Source: a virus
Virus record (IMG/VR): IMGVR_UViG_3300048912_000372
Coordinates: 1-20,294 of that record
Length of the DNA stretch: 20,294 nt
Reading direction: 5' to 3' (one strand)
The notes beneath the pieces were generated by a model. It saw nothing but the letters and a program-made list of their open reading frames with translations. It searched no databases and had not been told where the DNA came from. Positions 2,316 to 20,120 of the stretch are shown in pieces. Position numbers and translations under genes: made by a program. Each line of letters opens with the position of its first letter. The stretch's first letter is position 1.

Positions 2316-3698
2316 TCAGGTCTGGTTGGCGATGACGATGCCGGCCAGCTCCGGCTGCAGCACCGTCACGGCATACAGCGAGGTGAAGCGGCAGGTCGTC
2401 TTCGCCTTCAGGTGGTCGAACTGGTAGCTCATGATCAGCGGGATACCGTTCTTCGAGGTCGACGTCATGATCTGAGCGCCCTGCCCTTCCGGGAACGCCA
2501 GCTTGCCGGCCATCAGCTCGACCGCGCCTTCGACCCAGAACGGGCAGGCGGGCTTGGTCGCCGTGTTCAGGAAGGTGATGGCGGCACCGTTGGCGCCGGC
2601 CTGAGTCACGTTCTTGTAGGGGCCAGTCGCCACGAGCGCGGGCGTGATCACCAGGCTGGAGGTGCCGCCGCCGCTGATGACGCGGAACGTCTGCAGCTGG
2701 CCGGTGTCGTCCTTGGTGATGTTGTGCACCGAGTTCACCGCGGTGCCGCCCGAGCCGATCGTGAACGCGTCGCCGTTCTTGATGTTGGCGATGTTCGCGC
2801 CGGCGACCGTGATGGTCATGCGACGGTTGTCGGTCGGCAGGTCACCGGTCATCGCCGACGGCGTGAACGACGCGGCCGCACCCAGCGTGGTGCCGGTCAC
2901 GGTACCGACGGCCGCCAGGTTGTACAGGTTGTCCGTGCGGAAGGTGCGGAAGCCGGCGATGTCGGGCACGCGCGAGCGCTCGTACGCATCCAGGTTCACG
3001 TTGCCGAGGTACGCGCGGTTGCCCAGGTCCTTCGCGATGTCCTTGTAATCGAACGGGTTGAAGAAGAACTTGCGGCCGAGGTTCAGCGGCATGCCCTTGG
3101 CCAGCAGCGTGGCTTCGGCCAGCGCGCCATCGTCCCAGCTGATCGCGCCGACCTTCTTGATGACGTTGGCGCCTTGCAGCGCCACCGCCGTGTAGAGGTC
3201 CGAGTCGATCTTGCCCGACAGACGCAGACCGGCGGCGCGGCCGGCGTTGGTCTTGTGCGTGGGGTCACGCATTTCCTTGGCATCCAGCGTGTACAGGATG
3301 TTCTCGGGCGATTTGTAGGTCGCCGGCACCTGGCGCTGGATCAGGTCGGTGGGCGTGGCGGCGCTGATGTCCAGGCCGGTCACGGTGTCCATGTGGTAGT
3401 CCTGCGGCCGGTACACGGTGTCGCCGGCGCGCTGCATCGCCTGCTGGTCCGGGTACATGAAGGCTGCTTCCTGCGAGATCACGCAGGCGGCATCGAAGCC
3501 GACCACGAATTCCTCGAACAGGATCTCCAGGTCCTTGGTCAGCGCGTTGACGCCGAGAGCCAGGCCGCTGCGCTGCGCCTGCTTGAAGACGATCGCGCGC
3601 GCGCGGTTGGAAGCGGAGCGCAGAAGGTCCTGCGCGTTGATGGTCAGGGAGATGGCGGCCGCCGCGACGGCGGTGAGCTTGCGGGTCTTGATGTCCAC
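2316..3698 (-). CDS. P22-like major capsid (coat) protein
   Basis: The best start is a GTG at 3698, preceded by AGAGGAG with six bases between the AGGAG and the GTG; it gives 460 residues (P22 gp5 has 430). Landmarks shared with P22 coat include an N-terminal helical region with QDYHMD and RQVPATYKSP segments, the KFFFNPFDYKDIAKDLGNR stretch (YFFNPQDYKKAGYDLTKR in P22), the REFERENCE-like RRMTITVAGANIANIKNGD insertion-domain segment (RFATVTLSATTGMKRGD in P22), and a C-terminus ending in a Phe-rich beta strand and PELAGIVIANQT. The fold expected is HK97-like with a telokin-like insertion. The 134 bases between this gene and the scaffold gene hold no further gene; they include a short hairpin at 3729-3743 in the leader. 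Confidence 0.92.
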   Translation of the reverse strand: MDIKTRKLTAVAAAAISLTINAQDLLRSASNRARAIVFKQAQRSGLALGVNALTKDLEILFEEFVVGFDAACVISQEAAFMYPDQQAMQRAGDTVYRPQDYHMDTVTGLDISAATPTDLIQRQVPATYKSPENILYTLDAKEMRDPTHKTNAGRAAGLRLSGKIDSDLYTAVALQGANVIKKVGAISWDDGALAEATLLAKGMPLNLGRKFFFNPFDYKDIAKDLGNRAYLGNVNLDAYERSRVPDIAGFRTFRTDNLYNLAAVGTVTGTTLGAAASFTPSAMTGDLPTDNRRMTITVAGANIANIKNGDAFTIGSGGTAVNSVHNITKDDTGQLQTFRVISGGGTSSLVITPALVATGPYKNVTQAGANGAAITFLNTATKPACPFWVEGAVELMAGKLAFPEGQGAQIMTSTSKNGIPLIMSYQFDHLKAKTTCRFTSLYAVTVLQPELAGIVIANQT

Positions 3699-3832: not shown

Positions 3833-4834
3833 TCAGGCCGATTGCTTGGGACGGCTCTTCTCGGCCTGCTGGCGCTTGAAGGCGGTGACCTTCGAGTAAT
3901 CGCCGGACTCGCGCGCTTCCTTGCGCAGGCGTTCGAGCTGGTTGTCCACCGCGGCGGCGCCGGCGACATTGCCGCGGACGACGCGCTCGGGGGCCGGTGC
4001 TGCCTTGGTCTTCGATACCTTCATTTCGGATTCCAGCTTGGTGATTGCGACGGTGAACTTGATCGGGTCGGTGATGGCCGAGAGCTCCTTGAGCTTCTTC
4101 GGCGCGCTGCCCAGTGCATACACCATGAGGGCGGCCTTCTTGGGCTCCATCGCCACGAGCAGGATGCCCTGCTGCGTCTGGTTCAGCGAGTCCTTGACGG
4201 CGTCCTCGGCATCTTCGAAGTGATCGACCTTCAGCGCAGCCTTGGCGGTGTCGTATGCGGACTGCGTGCGCTGCCAGCTCTCGCGCTGCTGCTGCTCGGC
4301 GGTCTCGCGATCGGCCTTCTGCTTGGCGGCGGCGTTGGAGCGGTTGTTCCAGTCGGCCCAGTCCTTCTTGAACTTGGCCTTGCCCTCTTCGGTCCAGGTC
4401 TCGTAGTCGTCGACCTCCGGCTCCTTGCCGACCTCGATCTGCTGCGGCTCGACCGGGCGGCCGGCGCTGATCTGCGATTCGAGCTCGCGGATGCGGCGGT
4501 CCTTCTCGCGGTTGCTCTTGCGCAGGTCGCGCAGCCAGTCGGGGGCGCGCTTCTCGTCCTCGGGCTGCTCCGGCTCCTCGCCGATCGAGACCACGAGCGG
4601 GCCTTCGCCGTCTTCTTCCGAAGCCTCTTCGCCTTCGGCATCCTCGCCGTCAGCGTCATCGGCACTCGACTCGTCACCGTCGTCGGAACCTTCGCCGTCG
4701 TCTTCGGGAGCGTCCTCTCCATCCTGCTCATCGCCGTCGACCGCCTCCTCGCCATCCACCACCCGCAGGAGGTAGGGAGCGAGCAAACGCAGCAGCAGGG
4801 CGGAGAGCTTGGGCATGGTTGAAGTGCTCGTCAT
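3833..4834 (-). CDS. P22 gp8-like scaffolding protein
   Basis: The product is 333 residues from the ATG at 4834, or 327 from the ATG at 4816; neither has a convincing ribosome site, and a TTG at 4876 is also in frame. P22 gp8 has 303. After a short hydrophobic start (PKLSALLLRLLAPYLL) comes an unusually long Asp/Glu-rich tract covering roughly residues 25-90. A charged coiled-coil middle follows, with a QISAGRPVEP linker and a YETWTEEGKAKFKKDWADW segment (INAYLSEEGLAKYDYDN in P22). Then comes the helical EPKKAALMVYALGSAPKKL segment (PEKSAALMYHLGANPEKA in P22). The basic C-terminal helix-turn-helix, which binds coat in P22, is present as QLERLRKEARESGDYSKVT. It lies between portal and coat, as in P22. 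Confidence 0.9.
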   Translation of the reverse strand: MTSTSTMPKLSALLLRLLAPYLLRVVDGEEAVDGDEQDGEDAPEDDGEGSDDGDESSADDADGEDAEGEEASEEDGEGPLVVSIGEEPEQPEDEKRAPDWLRDLRKSNREKDRRIRELESQISAGRPVEPQQIEVGKEPEVDDYETWTEEGKAKFKKDWADWNNRSNAAAKQKADRETAEQQQRESWQRTQSAYDTAKAALKVDHFEDAEDAVKDSLNQTQQGILLVAMEPKKAALMVYALGSAPKKLKELSAITDPIKFTVAITKLESEMKVSKTKAAPAPERVVRGNVAGAAAVDNQLERLRKEARESGDYSKVTAFKRQQAEKSRPKQSA

Positions 4835-6976: not shown

Positions 6977-8407
6977 TCACCCGATCATGTCGAAGATCGC
7001 GCCGTAGGTCTCCGCCATGACGCGGTAGCCAGTGGCGTTGGGGTGCAGCACGTTGAAGTACCAGAGCGGGTTGACCTCCTGCGGCCCCCATTTCGTCCAG
7101 GTGTCCTGGAAGACGACGCCGTCGGCCTCGCAGAGGTCACGGATGGCGTCGACGTAGGACTTCTGCGTGGCGCGGGTGGCGGAGGTGATGCGCGACGGCA
7201 CGCCGGACCGGACGATGACGTCCGTGCCCTGAGCTTTCGCGGCCACGATGATCTTGTGCAGGTCGCCGATCACCGTTCCGGGCGTCGACGCGTTCCCGAT
7301 CGCCGTGCCGGCGACCCAGTCGTTGATGCACGGCCCCAGCTCCAGCAGATCCGGGTTGATCAGCTGCATCATGTTCAGCGCGCTGTACGGATTGGTGGAG
7401 TCCGCCCACTGCGCGACCTTCGAACCGGCGTAGGCGCCGCTGATGCAGCGCACCTGCGGGATGGTGCTGTTGTACGCATCGATGCCCAGCACGGTGACCG
7501 GGTTCGTCGTCGCGTCGTGGTCGATGGAGATCGCGGTGGTGGCCAGTGCGCCCTTGAACGTCAGCACGATGACGCCTTCGGCGCCCGCGGTGCTGATCGG
7601 CCCCTGCGAGGTGTCGCCAGCGCGCGAGAGCGTGATGCTTCCGCCGCCGGCTTGGCGTCGCACATAGACGACGTAGGTATCGCATTCCGACCAGGTCGAG
7701 TAGGTCAGCGACGTGCTCGCCGTGGTGGACTTGATCGGCCGGCCGCCGAGCGTGGTGATGGTCGCGTCGCTGGCCCAGCCGCTGCCCAGCGTGACGAGCG
7801 GGTTGTACTGGGTCAGCGTGTTGGCCACGTCGGCCGCGCCGCCGTCGCCCATCCAGTTCTCGGAGAACGCCTGCAGGCCGGGCCGCGTGATGACGTTGGC
7901 GAACTGCTGCGCCAGGCAGTAGAGCCGCGCGCCGACGAGGCCGCCGGATCCCGGGCCGTAGCTGCCAGCCTCGGTGCTGTCGCCCATGTTGAGCGCGATC
8001 ATCATGTCGGTGCCGGCCGCGACCGCGTTCTTCTTCGCCTTCGAGCGAACGAAGCTGGAGGGGCGCGTCGCACCGTACATCGCGAGGTTGCCGGCGTAGG
8101 CGCGACCGGCGTTCAGAGGGAGACCGGGCGCGGTGAGCGCCGTACCCGACGAGTCGGCGACGACGCGGCCCATGCTGCCCGTGATGCGCCCGGCGCTGTA
8201 GCTCAGCGGCAGCAGCGCGGTGACACCGATGGTGCGCGTGTCTCGGAACGGCCCGATGCGGGTTACCGAGGCTCCCAGCGTGTACGACGTCCCGGAGGCT
8301 TGGCCGTCGGCGATGACCGCCTGGCCCTGCCCGACGGCATCGAAGATCAGGTCCTGTCCGGCCTGGAGGGGAATGTTGACGGTCTTGCCGGCGGCGATGG
8401 TTGGCAT
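6977..8407 (-). CDS. SGNH/GDSL hydrolase, probably virion-associated esterase
   Basis: The 476-residue product has about 130 N-terminal residues without enzyme motifs (starts MPTIAAGKTVNIPLQAGQ), then an SGNH hydrolase. Block I is GDSTEAGS with nucleophile Ser144; block III is GPCINDW with Asn362; block V is LHPNATGY with His455. The position three before this His, usually Asp, is Asn452. Between blocks I and III lies a beta-rich insertion of about 150 residues, the kind of module seen in carbohydrate esterases. No signal peptide or membrane segment is present. It is inserted between the large terminase and portal genes, which adjoin in P22. Inference: a structural or tail-associated enzyme acting on surface polysaccharide, perhaps a deacetylase. 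The fold call is firm; substrate and virion location are not shown by sequence. Confidence 0.85.
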   Translation of the reverse strand: MPTIAAGKTVNIPLQAGQDLIFDAVGQGQAVIADGQASGTSYTLGASVTRIGPFRDTRTIGVTALLPLSYSAGRITGSMGRVVADSSGTALTAPGLPLNAGRAYAGNLAMYGATRPSSFVRSKAKKNAVAAGTDMMIALNMGDSTEAGSYGPGSGGLVGARLYCLAQQFANVITRPGLQAFSENWMGDGGAADVANTLTQYNPLVTLGSGWASDATITTLGGRPIKSTTASTSLTYSTWSECDTYVVYVRRQAGGGSITLSRAGDTSQGPISTAGAEGVIVLTFKGALATTAISIDHDATTNPVTVLGIDAYNSTIPQVRCISGAYAGSKVAQWADSTNPYSALNMMQLINPDLLELGPCINDWVAGTAIGNASTPGTVIGDLHKIIVAAKAQGTDVIVRSGVPSRITSATRATQKSYVDAIRDLCEADGVVFQDTWTKWGPQEVNPLWYFNVLHPNATGYRVMAETYGAIFDMIG

Positions 8408-11225: not shown

Positions 11226-11464
11226 GTGTTGTCCTCTTGAAGTTCTCGGCGTCGACGGCGCTCGATGCGCTGGTGCTTCTCAAGCGCGACGCGCACCTGC
11301 TTCGGCCTACCGATGTGCCAGGCGCGACAGAAGACGCAGTGATAGGCCTGCATCGGCTCTTCGTGCCGGCGGCTGACCGTGCGGGCGAGTTCGCGGGCCC
11401 TGCTGAAGCTGTAGCTCTTCTTGTGCGTGCACGCGGACGCCCTGAAGTCGTCGCGCGCGGTCAT
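11222..11464 (-). CDS. Small zinc-ribbon-like basic protein
   Basis: This gene encodes 80 residues. The N-terminal Cys12 region (ACTHKKSYSF) and the later YHCVFCRAWHIG motif (Cys43, Cys46, His50) form the C...C-x2-C...H pattern of small zinc-ribbon proteins found in many phages. The C-terminal 25 residues are strongly basic (RIERRRRREL), suggesting nucleic-acid binding. The gene is wedged between the M48-like and Ntn-hydrolase genes with ATGA overlaps at both ends. No specific function is known. Confidence 0.8.
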   Translation of the reverse strand: MTARDDFRASACTHKKSYSFSRARELARTVSRRHEEPMQAYHCVFCRAWHIGRPKQVRVALEKHQRIERRRRRELQEDNT

Positions 11465-11874
11465 GGCGTGACGCCCTGAAGTCGTCGCGCGCGCAGCTGG
11501 TCGACCGGGTGGTTGCTGAGCTTGCCGATGGCTCTGGCGAGCGCGGCGGCGTGACCCTGCTGGGCGGCGAAGTCATCGGCCTCGAGCTCCTGCTGGAGCG
11601 CGCGCTGGGGCGTGCGGCTCAGGAAGATGCAGGCCAGCGCGAGGTTCTCGATCGCGTGCAGGTGGTGGATGTGGCCGCGCTCGTGGGCGAGCACCGCGTC
11701 GAGCTCTTCGGGCGTGAGCTGCGCGCGCACGCGGTCGGGGATGACGATGGTGAGGCCGTTCGTCACCGCGAAGCCGAAGGCATGCGCGACCGGCGGCACG
11801 ACCAGCAGCAGAGCCACCTGCAGCAGGCACCAGACGCCCCAAACGCAGAGCACCAGTGTGATCAGATCGAGCAT
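11461..11874 (-). CDS. Short M48-like membrane metallopeptidase
   Basis: The 137-residue product has an N-terminal hydrophobic segment (residues about 4-30, WGVWCLLQVALLLVVPPVA), then a gluzincin core: HERGH at 64-68 is the HExxH zinc motif, and ELEAD at 96-100 supplies the third ligand Glu96 in the E-x-x-A-D arrangement of the M48 (HtpX/Ste24) family. The LTPEELDAVLAHERGH run is typical of M48. It is less than half the length of HtpX and has only one membrane segment. A GAGGAG lies six bases before the ATG. Its start lies inside the 3' end of the double-HTH gene (13-base overlap). Substrate unknown. Confidence 0.85.
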   Translation of the reverse strand: MLDLITLVLCVWGVWCLLQVALLLVVPPVAHAFGFAVTNGLTIVIPDRVRAQLTPEELDAVLAHERGHIHHLHAIENLALACIFLSRTPQRALQQELEADDFAAQQGHAAALARAIGKLSNHPVDQLRARRLQGVTP

Positions 11875-18109: not shown

Positions 18110-18364
18110 TCAGCCGCCCTGGGCCGCAGCTTCAGCCGGCGCGGCCTGCTCCCGCAGGACGTCCCACGCGACATCGGGGCGCAGTTCCTCGCAGCGCACG
18201 GCGCCGCCGGTGGCGCGCTCGATCGCGGGGCAGTACTCCGCCGGCACACGGCCACGCTTCTTCCACATGTGGGGGGCGCTGTCGCTGACGCCGATGGCGG
18301 ACGCGAAAGCGGTGGGACCTTTCAGCTGGTCGATGGCTCGTTGGAGGGCTTCCATGGCAGTCAT
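18110..18364 (-). CDS. Cro-like repressor of the YdaS family
   Basis: The 84-residue product from the ATG at 18364 (or 81 from 18355) has a clear YdaS/Cro-type HTH: MEALQRAIDQLKGPTAFASA, then IGVSDSAPHMWKKRGRVPAE, and the family tail AIERATGGAVRCEELRPDVA. It is divergent from the CI-like gene with the operators between, as lambda cro is. Its promoter lies at 18384-18412. It is expected to turn down the repressor after induction and open the leftward lytic operon. Only weak ribosome-site sequence (GAG seven bases upstream) precedes the ATG. Confidence 0.85.
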   Translation of the reverse strand: MTAMEALQRAIDQLKGPTAFASAIGVSDSAPHMWKKRGRVPAEYCPAIERATGGAVRCEELRPDVAWDVLREQAAPAEAAAQGG

Positions 18365-18371
18365 TTCGTTG

Positions 18372-18385
18372 CTCACGTTCGTGAG
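18372..18385. promoter_or_regulatory. Immunity operator, OR copy nearest cro
   Basis: CTCAC-GTTC-GTGAG is a perfect 14-base palindrome. It covers the expected transcription start of the leftward cro promoter. It is the best match of five copies of CTCAC-N4-GTGAG in the window. Confidence 0.8.
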
Positions 18386-18412
18386 TATGCAGCACTCACC
18401 ATCGTGGCGCAA
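18384..18412 (-). promoter_or_regulatory. Leftward cro promoter (PR-like)
   Basis: Read on the minus strand, TTGCGC (18412-18407) and CATACT (18389-18384) are separated by 17 bases. The middle operator lies in the spacer and the first operator begins at the -10, so repressor would block it as in lambda PR. Matches to consensus are partial (3 of 6 and 4 of 6). Confidence 0.55.
18395..18408. promoter_or_regulatory. Immunity operator, middle OR copy
   Basis: CTCAC-CATC-GTGGC matches the palindrome in one full half site and three of five positions of the other. Centre is 23 bases from the first operator. It lies in the spacer of the cro promoter. Confidence 0.6.
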
Positions 18413-18424
18413 GAACCTGCGCCA

Positions 18425-18438
18425 ATCACAGCTGTGAG
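18425..18438. promoter_or_regulatory. Immunity operator, OR copy overlapping the repressor start
   Basis: ATCAC-AGCT-GTGAG matches nine of ten half-site bases. It includes the proposed GTG start codon of the repressor (18434). Binding here would be expected to limit the repressor's own expression, like lambda OR3. Confidence 0.7.
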
Positions 18439-19063
18439 TAAATTTCCCGAACGACTGAAGGAAGCCCGTGAACGGGCTGATTTATCCCAGGCCGCCCTCG
18501 CGAAGAAGGCAGGCGTTTCCGCCGGGTCCATAGGTAACTGGGAGGCTGGAACGCGCCATTCCGCGCGCGGGCTACTGAAGCTGGCGGTAGCCCTCGGAGT
18601 CAGTCCCGAGTGGTTGGCCGGAGCGGAAGCCGAGCCGTCCGACCGCAGCGTGGCCAACTCCACCGAGATGAGCCTTGGAACGCTCGCTCTCGTCATGGCC
18701 CGAGCCATGACGAGCCTCAGCGAGGAAGAACGGGACCTCATCGCGCAGCAGGTCGCCCACCTGCTTCGCCGGGGTCCGGCCGAGCGCATCGCCGCGGCGA
18801 TCGACGCGCTTGCTCCCGTGTCGGTGGTTATCCCACCGTTGGGGGATGGGGGTGGCAAAGACAGCGCTGGACATCTACAACCCGTAGTTCGCGCGGCCTA
18901 CAGAGCCGAGGGGACAACGAAGGTTGGAGGAGGATCAGCATGGGACTCGACGCAACCAAGCTCGCCCGGGAGGGACGTGCACATTCCGATGGAGGAACCA
19001 GGCAGTCAGCCAATACACCGCGTGCCGGGTCGGCCGTCGGCGAGCAAGAGATCAGCGAAATGA
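18434..19063 (+). CDS. CI-like repressor lacking a protease domain
   Basis: The 209-residue product from a GTG at 18434 has an N-terminal XRE HTH (residues about 5-60): PERLKEARERADLSQAALAK, KAGVSAGSIGNWEAGTRHSA, then LLKLAVALGVSPEWLAG. A helical middle follows (MTSLSEEERDLIAQQVAHLL). The last 70 residues are Gly-, Ser- and Pro-rich. No S24 (LexA-like) Ser-Lys site is seen, so RecA-stimulated self-cleavage is not expected. No ribosome site precedes the GTG, which sits in an operator; an in-frame GTG at 18404 is an alternative. The C-terminal part overlaps a second open frame and may be a frameshift product (see findings). Confidence 0.8.
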   Translation: MSKFPERLKEARERADLSQAALAKKAGVSAGSIGNWEAGTRHSARGLLKLAVALGVSPEWLAGAEAEPSDRSVANSTEMSLGTLALVMARAMTSLSEEERDLIAQQVAHLLRRGPAERIAAAIDALAPVSVVIPPLGDGGGKDSAGHLQPVVRAAYRAEGTTKVGGGSAWDSTQPSSPGRDVHIPMEEPGSQPIHRVPGRPSASKRSAK

Positions 19064-19323
19064 CGCGCCGCGAGCGACCATTCCGCCTTGTGCAGCTGAA
19101 GAAGCCCGTCTCGAACGACACGGTGCGCTGCCTGCGGGCGCTTCTGGCGGAGGCCGAGCGCGGCGAAATCCACGGCATCTGCTATGCGGTGATGAAGTCC
19201 GACCGCAACTTCACCTATAACCTCTGTGGTGAGGCTCACCGCAATCCGGCGTGGGCCGCCGGCATGGTTGCAACGCTCATGCACGGGACCATGAAGATCG
19301 TTTTTAAGGAGGATGGAGCATGA
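19060..19323 (+). CDS. Small unknown protein between repressor and SGNH hydrolase
   Basis: The 87-residue product from the ATG at 19060 (overlapping the repressor stop as ATGA) contains VSNDTVRCLRALLAEAERGE, then IHGICYAVMKSDRNFTYNLC and GEAHRNPAWAAGMVATLMHG. The pattern of a helix with AxxGE, a two-strand segment and G-E-A-H-R-N-P recurs in small phage and proteobacterial proteins of unknown function. A second in-frame ATG at 18940 has AGGAGG six bases upstream and would give 127 residues, overlapping the repressor gene by 124 bases. It is co-oriented with the repressor and the hydrolase in the position of lambda rexA, so it is probably made by lysogens. Confidence 0.7.
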   Translation: MTRRERPFRLVQLKKPVSNDTVRCLRALLAEAERGEIHGICYAVMKSDRNFTYNLCGEAHRNPAWAAGMVATLMHGTMKIVFKEDGA

Positions 19324-20018
19324 AGTTGCCCTCCGCTCTTCGTAGCCGCAAAGTGGTCCTTCTTGCATACCTCGCGGCAATCCACGGCGCGCTCGGGATC
19401 GCGCTGATCGGCCCCAGTGTTGCCCAGCACTTGACCGTTCCGACGATTCCAGAAGAGGAGTCGATCATCCCGCGCCTGCGCGAGGTTCACGCCCAGATGG
19501 ACGCTTCGGTTCCCGCGGGCGCGGCTGTCTTCCTGGGCGACAGCATCACCATGGCGCTCGCCACGGCCGCTGTCGAGCCGCGTGCGGTCAACTACGGCAT
19601 TGGCTGGCAGCGCAGCGACCAGCTTCTGGTGTCGATGAAGGGCTATGGGTCCTTGCAGCGAGCAGGCCGCGTCTTCGTGATGATCGGCACTAACGACCTG
19701 CTGCAGGGTCGAGAAGCTGGTATTGGCGAGCGGTATCGCGCCATCCTTTCGACAATCCCAGCCGGGATCCCGGTTGTGATGAGCAGCCCGCCGCCGATTG
19801 GCCCGATCACCTTCTACGGCGTGCACAAGGTTGAGGACGCTGCGGTCCGCCAGGCCGGTATCGAGGCCCGCGCCGCATGCGCAGCGGACCCCCGATGCCG
19901 ATTCGTGGACACCTATTCGCTGCTAAAGGGCACCGAAGGCGCGTTGCTCCCGGACCAGATTCACCTGGCGCCACCCGGTTACACGCTGTGGATCCGGGCG
20001 CTCAAGGGTCTGTCCTGA
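19320..20018 (+). CDS. Membrane-anchored SGNH/GDSL hydrolase in the rexB position
   Basis: The 232-residue product follows AAGGAGG with seven bases to the ATG, one of the strongest ribosome sites here; the start overlaps the previous stop as ATGA. Residues 11-33 (KVVLLAYLAAIHGALGIALI) form a signal anchor after a basic start. The catalytic core is complete: GDSIT with Ser75 in block I, NYGIGW in block II, GTND with Asn125 in block III and DQIH with Asp212 and His215 in block V. It would sit in the inner membrane facing the periplasm or be exported. SGNH enzymes often remove or move acyl groups on polysaccharides, lipids or peptidoglycan; the substrate here is unknown. A terminator follows 25 bases after the stop. 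Confidence 0.88.
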   Translation: MKLPSALRSRKVVLLAYLAAIHGALGIALIGPSVAQHLTVPTIPEEESIIPRLREVHAQMDASVPAGAAVFLGDSITMALATAAVEPRAVNYGIGWQRSDQLLVSMKGYGSLQRAGRVFVMIGTNDLLQGREAGIGERYRAILSTIPAGIPVVMSSPPPIGPITFYGVHKVEDAAVRQAGIEARAACAADPRCRFVDTYSLLKGTEGALLPDQIHLAPPGYTLWIRALKGLS

Positions 20019-20042
20019 AACGAGAAGCAGGTTCGCACCGCC

Positions 20043-20068
20043 ATGCCCGCCGCGCGCGGGCATTTTTT
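20043..20068 (+). terminator. Intrinsic terminator of the repressor operon
   Basis: ATGCCCGC and GCGGGCAT form a perfect eight-pair stem with a five-base loop, followed by a run of Ts (six counting the last stem base). It lies 25 bases after the hydrolase stop and before the distal operators, so it separates the lysogeny operon from the next promoter. Confidence 0.88.
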
Positions 20069-20079
20069 CGGCCGAAACA

Positions 20080-20093
20080 CTCACAAACGTGTT
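20080..20093. promoter_or_regulatory. Immunity operator, OL-like copy 1
   Basis: CTCAC-AAAC-GTGTT matches eight of ten half-site bases of the OR operators. It overlaps the -35 of the distal promoter. Centre to centre spacing to the next copy is 21 bases. Confidence 0.65.
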
Positions 20094-20120
20094 GACCACA
20101 CCCACACATGTGAGTACATT
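20092..20120 (+). promoter_or_regulatory. Rightward, repressor-controlled promoter (PL-like)
   Basis: TTGACC (20092-20097) and TACATT (20115-20120) are separated by exactly 17 bases and match the sigma-70 consensus at five and four of six positions. Two copies of the immunity operator overlap it. It directs transcription away from the repressor block toward the gene at the right edge, the mirror of lambda PL. Confidence 0.78.
20101..20114. promoter_or_regulatory. Immunity operator, OL-like copy 2
   Basis: CCCAC-ACAT-GTGAG matches nine of ten half-site bases. It fills the spacer between the -35 and -10 of the distal promoter. Confidence 0.7.

Follow-up and report, generated by a model that had tools for sequence, protein, structure and literature searches.

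What does a gene for an SGNH hydrolase do in the repressor operon of a temperate phage? The question is raised by a 20,294-base IMG/VR virus record (IMGVR_UViG_3300048912_000372), the whole of which was analysed and is called the window here. It contains a prophage repressor gene, a gene for a conserved 87-aa protein (p87) and the SGNH gene in one row. According to the original prediction, the hydrolase is a membrane-anchored enzyme in the position which rexAB has in lambda, is made in lysogens and serves as a lysogenic-conversion factor. The window is an incomplete record, a fragment of a temperate phage with a P22-like portal (phrog_156 match), and the integrase lies outside it. The closest annotated portals belong to unclassified Caudoviricetes (54–58%) and to Pseudomonas phage PfAn1 (46%), and portal relatives within IMG/VR reach at most 77%. 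An integrase match (E 0.001 or better) was found in all seven related records tested, for four of them above the curated cut-off. Two further genes of this phage deserve mention. A second SGNH protein of 476 aa (6977–8407, minus strand; PF13472, 7.6e-10) is encoded between the terminase and portal genes and has a 29% identical counterpart in the relative L028; BLAST finds no similarity between it and the SGNH protein of the repressor operon. It is probably virion-associated and possibly acts on the same glycan. Furthermore, a small membrane metallopeptidase of the M48 family (137 aa; 11461–11874, minus strand; PF01435, 5.4e-11, motif AHERGH) is present.

The repressor gene (18434–19063, plus strand, GTG start) codes for a protein with an N-terminal HTH_3 domain (PF01381, 3.8e-13) and a Lys-rich C-terminus that resembles the repressor C-termini of the related loci L082 and L083. 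Since a Pfam search found no S24/LexA-type domain in it, this C-terminus is not like that of lambda CI, and a lambda-type cleavable CI was ruled out. The p87 gene (19060–19323, plus strand) and the gene for the 232-aa SGNH protein (19320–20018, plus strand) follow on the same strand, each joined to its predecessor by an exact ATGA overlap, just as had been predicted. The GC content by codon position indicates coding in the repressor frame up to about 18800, in the p87 frame from about 19000 and in the SGNH frame throughout. For p87 also a start at ATG 18940 was considered, which has a good Shine-Dalgarno sequence and would yield 127 aa, but the homologues support ATG 19060. A wrong frame for the SGNH gene was ruled out by the codon signal and the active site. 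The operon ends at an intrinsic terminator (20043–20070, plus strand), consisting of a hairpin at 20043–20063 and a T-run. Behind it is a pL-like promoter (TTGACC-17-TACATT, 20092–20120, plus strand), the sole sigma70-like site detected between 17900 and 20294; no internal promoter was found within the operon. Divergent from the repressor gene, a Cro/YdaS-like repressor is encoded at 18110–18364 (minus strand; PF15943 YdaS 2.4e-21, P22_Cro 2.6e-5, phrog_35 transcriptional repressor 3.8e-20), in a reading frame open from 18412 and with a likely ATG at 18364.

Putative operators of the palindromic form CTCAC-N4-GTGAG bracket this block, three of them OR-like at 18372–18385, 18395–18408 and 18425–18438 (with 0, 2 and 1 mismatches) and two OL-like at 20080–20093 and 20101–20114 (2 and 1 mismatches), the latter overlapping the pL-like promoter. 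The pattern alone is not over-represented in the window, where 10 matches face 14 expected ones. Five of the ten fall into the two control regions, which together cover 0.7% of the window's length (binomial p 5e-9, for regions picked post hoc). Therefore, the assignment relies on position together with the matching layout in relatives, and the comparative argument is the stronger one. In L082, the nearest relative by p87, a different palindrome, TATGCG-N4-CGCATA, occurs at 3224, 3248 and 3263 before the repressor gene and again at 4581 and 4606, past the terminator. Likewise, L083 has TTGGACA..TTTGTCCA sites 5' of the repressor gene and 3' of the terminator. The operators on both sides that had been proposed are thus reproduced in kind, and the SGNH gene does occupy the rexAB-equivalent position: on the same strand, 3' of the repressor gene and before the terminator and the pL operators.

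The SGNH protein matches PF13472 (E 2.3e-12, above the Pfam cut-off) and phrog_14008 (E 4.5e-21). Blocks I (GDS), II (G), III (GxND) and V (DxxH) are all present, with the catalytic Ser/Asp/His and the oxyanion Gly/Asn. In an alignment with 13 relatives G73, S75, G93, N125, D212 and H215 are invariant, which bears out the complete Ser75/Asn125/Asp212/His215 set read from the single sequence before. An AF2 model computed with this alignment of 14 sequences has a pLDDT above 90 for 125 residues, covering most of the catalytic domain, while the N-terminal 44 residues are unreliable; without the alignment the pLDDT is 37. As modelled, the protein can with confidence be assigned the three-layer SGNH fold. 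The top Foldseek matches are a pneumococcal PAF-AH-like protein (2hsj, E 6.4e-10), brain PAF acetylhydrolase and a sialate O-acetylesterase from Phocaeicola (7pzh, TMt 0.80). The fold matches also include TesA/lysophospholipase L1 and PAF-AH, and the catalytic domain of OatA follows lower down (5ufy, E 2.5e-6). A profile built from the SGNH protein and its homologue in Acinetobacter phages gave a similar picture, with the PAF-AH-like 2hsj (1.5e-16), the sialate O-acetylesterase 6njc (1.8e-14) and acetyl xylan esterases. Judged by model and profile, the protein appears closest to acetylhydrolases and sialate/xylan O-acetylesterases, and the nearest structures are what suggests the hydrolysis of sugar O-acetyl groups.

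At the N-terminus, there are four positive charges within residues 1–11, and a hydrophobic stretch of about 20 residues comes next (transmembrane or signal segment at approximately residues 12–34), a charge distribution which corresponds to an n-in/c-out orientation. From this the protein is predicted to be membrane-anchored with the enzyme outside the cytoplasm. The anchor that had been claimed thus stands as a prediction, but cleavage by signal peptidase after A35 (SVA) is possible as well. The best homologue, 32% identical, comes from Acinetobacter phages; it also has an N-terminal hydrophobic segment, and its gene is located just upstream of a tail gene. Close relatives were otherwise not found: IMG/VR yielded a single distant match, to an SGNH protein of a head/tail region, GTDB genomes only generic members of the superfamily (about 24–35%), and plasmids as well as 35 records of portal relatives none. 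There was no PADLOC match and no homology to RexA/RexB, BstA or catalogued defence proteins. An AT3 domain is neither fused nor adjacent to the SGNH domain: the protein contains a single hydrophobic segment, and its gene is the last of the operon.

The p87 gene is much easier to follow. Used as single sequences, repressor and p87 found no matches; an alignment search with p87 led to 30 loci and later to a few more (L082–L111, L130, L132, L137, L138). Its homologues, 32–69% identical, occur in more than 30 viral contigs, with 38–49% in phages with related portals; none was found in 399 genomes, a sample from one phylum. The family comprises proteins of 80–90 aa with the consensus DTVECL..LL..A..GE.IG.AYAAM...GEAHRNPTFARGM. 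For its function the searches gave no Pfam, PADLOC or solved-structure match, and a weak one to phrog_35043 (unknown function). In most loci the p87 gene is found directly 3' of a probable repressor ORF whose end touches or overlaps the p87 start. Among 29 such upstream ORFs HTH_3 was detected in 13 (E 0.001), HTH_31 in nine and S24 in three, with overlapping counts. Together with the S24-free repressor of the window this indicates that the type of repressor varies, while p87 and the slot behind it stay.

This slot is filled in very different ways. At the DNA level, homology between the window and L082 extends over p87 (70%, 19077–19313), is lost over the cargo and reappears at the terminator (20036–20070), which is 83% identical over 36 nt. 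Stopping at p87 and resuming at the terminator, it marks the SGNH gene as an exchangeable insert. Also among the other loci the gene after p87 is mostly unrelated from one to the next. The cargo includes zinc-ribbon-plus-TM proteins, small proteins with one or two TM segments and lipoproteins (L070/L099, L073/L095, L081/L106). Among the slot proteins are an exported one of the Rap1a family, an immunity-protein family (L109:4308–4637, plus strand; 2.8e-18), a lipoprotein with a BamE domain (9.6e-5) and another lipoprotein that weakly resembles the exclusion protein Cor (E 0.0099). In L028 a second p87-like gene takes this place. The slot genes of L091, L094, L098 and L111 do not code for envelope proteins, and L083, L086, L096, L104 and L105 have no obvious slot gene, the terminator following close behind p87 in L083 and L096. 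By a hydropathy/lipobox rule, 18 of 22 loci have an envelope-exported slot gene, compared to 29 of 184 size-matched control ORFs from the same loci (about 16%; p ~1e-11); the rules are simple, the gene calling for the controls is crude and the loci are partly non-independent. When related cargo was merged and curated by hand, 16 of the 22 cargo families were envelope-exported, be it as lipoprotein, TM protein or by a signal peptide (p 4e-9, and still 3.5e-6 against a pessimistic control rate of 25%). Such companions suggest that the slot alters the host surface and perhaps excludes rival viruses. A search of the related loci for a further SGNH gene in the slot remained negative. Of the gene pair that one might look for in related phages, p87 behind the repressor is conserved, whereas the slot gene differs.

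What, then, is the SGNH gene for? We regard it, with somewhat more belief than doubt, as lysogeny cargo in a replaceable slot, coding for an exported O-acyl esterase that changes the envelope and excludes phages. In the order repressor, p87, cargo, terminator, the enzyme would be expressed from the repressor promoter in the lysogen; we infer this from the operon structure, with the transcription shown for cI-bstA (PMC7067206) and for ltp in the prophage (PMC3952083) as precedents. It would either stay attached to the inner membrane, facing outwards, or be released into the periplasm, and there remove acetyl or other short acyl groups from an envelope glycan or its lipid-linked precursor; the nearest folds point to an enzyme that hydrolyses O-acyl esters of an envelope glycan from the periplasmic side. 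The altered surface may then hinder competing phages in adsorption or DNA entry, and progeny in re-adsorption, that is, act as lysogenic conversion or superinfection exclusion, a step suggested by the slot companions and by precedent. As a lysogenic-conversion factor the gene therefore looks as expected in its operon under repressor control, its envelope-directed product and its swappable slot with mostly exported companions; deacylation and blocked adsorption remain the inferred part. A wider reading, to which we give less credit, is that p87 marks an "envelope conversion slot" common to many temperate phages, in which the SGNH enzyme represents one class of effectors, deacylating the lysogen surface in reverse of Sf6 Oac. 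If so, the p87 gene would be a handle for new surface-acting superinfection-exclusion proteins.

SGNH genes were also found at other lysogeny loci. Vibrio phage ZF14_PE001 (PQ189390; L140:2075–4489) has the order CI (Phage_CI_repr and Phage_CI_C), acyltransferase-3 (AT3, PF01757, 3e-23), SGNH lipoprotein (lipobox FISGC) and integrase, and the first three genes overlap. By its gene content this appears to be an O-antigen acylation cassette in split form, controlled by the repressor. In contig G460, whose p87 slot is empty (L086), a 232-aa SGNH lipoprotein is encoded directly downstream of the integrase (L145:1426–3306, minus strand). An E. coli Lederbergvirus carries an SGNH gene, without evident signal, between tailspike and integrase, the place of the gtr or oac genes in P22-like phages. 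Finally, an N-terminally anchored SGNH protein exists in a Vibrio phage whose replication and partition genes are of the plasmid type. Several unrelated temperate phages have thus acquired SGNH genes at conversion-type positions, and most of the products are predicted to be exported.

The arrangement in ZF14_PE001, with the AT3 gene directly before that of the SGNH lipoprotein in a CI operon, keeps the main alternative alive. The SGNH protein could be that half of an O-acyltransferase which does the transfer in the periplasm, passing an acyl group from a host AT3 or MBOAT protein to O-antigen, capsule or peptidoglycan in the mode of OafB, OatA or PatB. In OafA, LPS acetylation requires the SGNH domain, which is also sufficient for it (PMC7448272), and AT3 and SGNH proteins that are separate from each other are reported to cross-talk (PMC9558356); both count for this possibility. 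As the catalytic domain of OatA, a transferase, also matches by fold, the enzyme may be an esterase or a transferase. Acyl chemistry on surface glycans is backed in part, by the nearest folds and by the AT3-SGNH pair of ZF14_PE001. However, the operon reaches its terminator without an acyltransferase gene, esterases and acetylhydrolases rank first by sequence and fold, and no Pfam model for AlgX or another transferase-type SGNH protein matches. We consider transfer unlikely, though to be taken seriously. A little less likely still is lysogeny cargo with a non-glycan or cell-wall target, such as lysophospholipids or the O-acetyl groups of peptidoglycan, which would serve general host fitness and not phage exclusion. 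SGNH enzymes are promiscuous, with TesA/lysophospholipase L1 and PAF-AH as examples from the fold matches, and the Rap1a and BamE-domain proteins in the slot suggest general envelope roles, but the nearest characterised structures include carbohydrate O-acetylesterases.

Far less credible is a late, virion-associated receptor deacetylase. SGNH domains are common in the tail fibres of many phages (PMC13123978), and in Acinetobacter phage 5W the nearest homologue is encoded just upstream of a tail-protein gene. The gene in the window is part of a repressor operon with its own terminator, the product has an N-terminal membrane signal and lacks a tail-attachment region, and this phage already possesses the separate, dissimilar 476-aa SGNH protein. 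In view of operon position and membrane signal this reading was dropped. That the gene is a neutral recent acquisition, functionless or unexpressed, would fit the missing close homologues and the slots left empty in some relatives, but is very improbable given the intact frame, the codon-position GC signal, the complete active site and the perfect ATGA coupling.

Returning to the exported O-acyl esterase as lysogeny cargo, the slot itself is not a new kind of locus, because the interval between cI and n is already known as a mosaic cargo hotspot (Degnan et al. 2007, as cited in PMC8585504; PMC7067206). No description of an SGNH hydrolase as repressor-operon cargo was found in the openly searchable literature. 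The claim that such an enzyme is not described at this locus thus holds only in part: the slot is known, and ZF14_PE001 offers a deposited, apparently undiscussed example with an SGNH gene in its repressor operon. Within the range of our searches three things are new: p87 as a marker family, the strong bias of its slot towards exported proteins, and the anchored SGNH protein as cargo. Most genes in repressor-linked cargo slots are uncharacterised; with p87 as anchor and with the export bias, candidates for superinfection exclusion or conversion can be listed by position and tested uniformly. The known examples of lysogenic conversion add groups (Oac, Gtr), and acyl-removing SGNH enzymes are known in virions. 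An O-acyl esterase made by lysogens would, if true, convert the surface by a chemistry that is new for lysogenic conversion.

How does this locus compare to known systems? In lambda (cI-rexAB), BTP1 (cI-bstA) and P. putida P1 (RexABpp), lysogeny cargo likewise sits directly 3' of the repressor gene and before pL, and for bstA a transcript shared with cI, from the cI promoter, is known (PMC7067206, PMC8585504, PMC12894663). The mechanisms of RexAB, BstA and RexABpp are abortive ones that operate within the cell or, for RexB, at the inner membrane, whereas the cargo of the window is a predicted exported SGNH enzyme. Unlike in rexAB or bstA, p87 precedes the cargo, and the cargo of the relatives is mostly envelope-exported. 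The same order of repressor, small protein and exported protein is found in Streptococcus thermophilus phage TP-J34 (crh, orf3, ltp), where the lipoprotein Ltp, transcribed in the prophage, mediates superinfection exclusion by blocking DNA injection (PMC3952083). Ltp, however, is a non-enzymatic Gram-positive lipoprotein, the product in the window an SGNH enzyme. ZF14_PE001 shares an envelope SGNH gene in the CI repressor operon of a temperate phage, but differs by its 186-like integrase and regulators, the lipoprotein anchor, the pairing with AT3 and a location outside a p87 slot; with the window protein as tblastn query its SGNH protein gave no match, so that only the superfamily is common to both. 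Sf6 Oac and OafA/OafB are, likewise, envelope proteins of prophage or host that edit O-acyl groups of surface glycans, and in the AT3-SGNH O-antigen acetyltransferases the SGNH domain is located on the periplasmic face (PMC9558356, PMC7448272). In contrast to these, the window operon has no AT3 domain or partner, and its enzyme, as modelled, probably removes the acyl group. The chemistry predicted here is that of the SGNH tail-fibre esterases of phage G7C and Klebsiella prophages, O-acetylesterases of surface polysaccharides (PMC13123978). These are receptor-binding proteins of the virion, whereas the SGNH protein of the window is predicted to be an anchored enzyme of the lysogeny operon.
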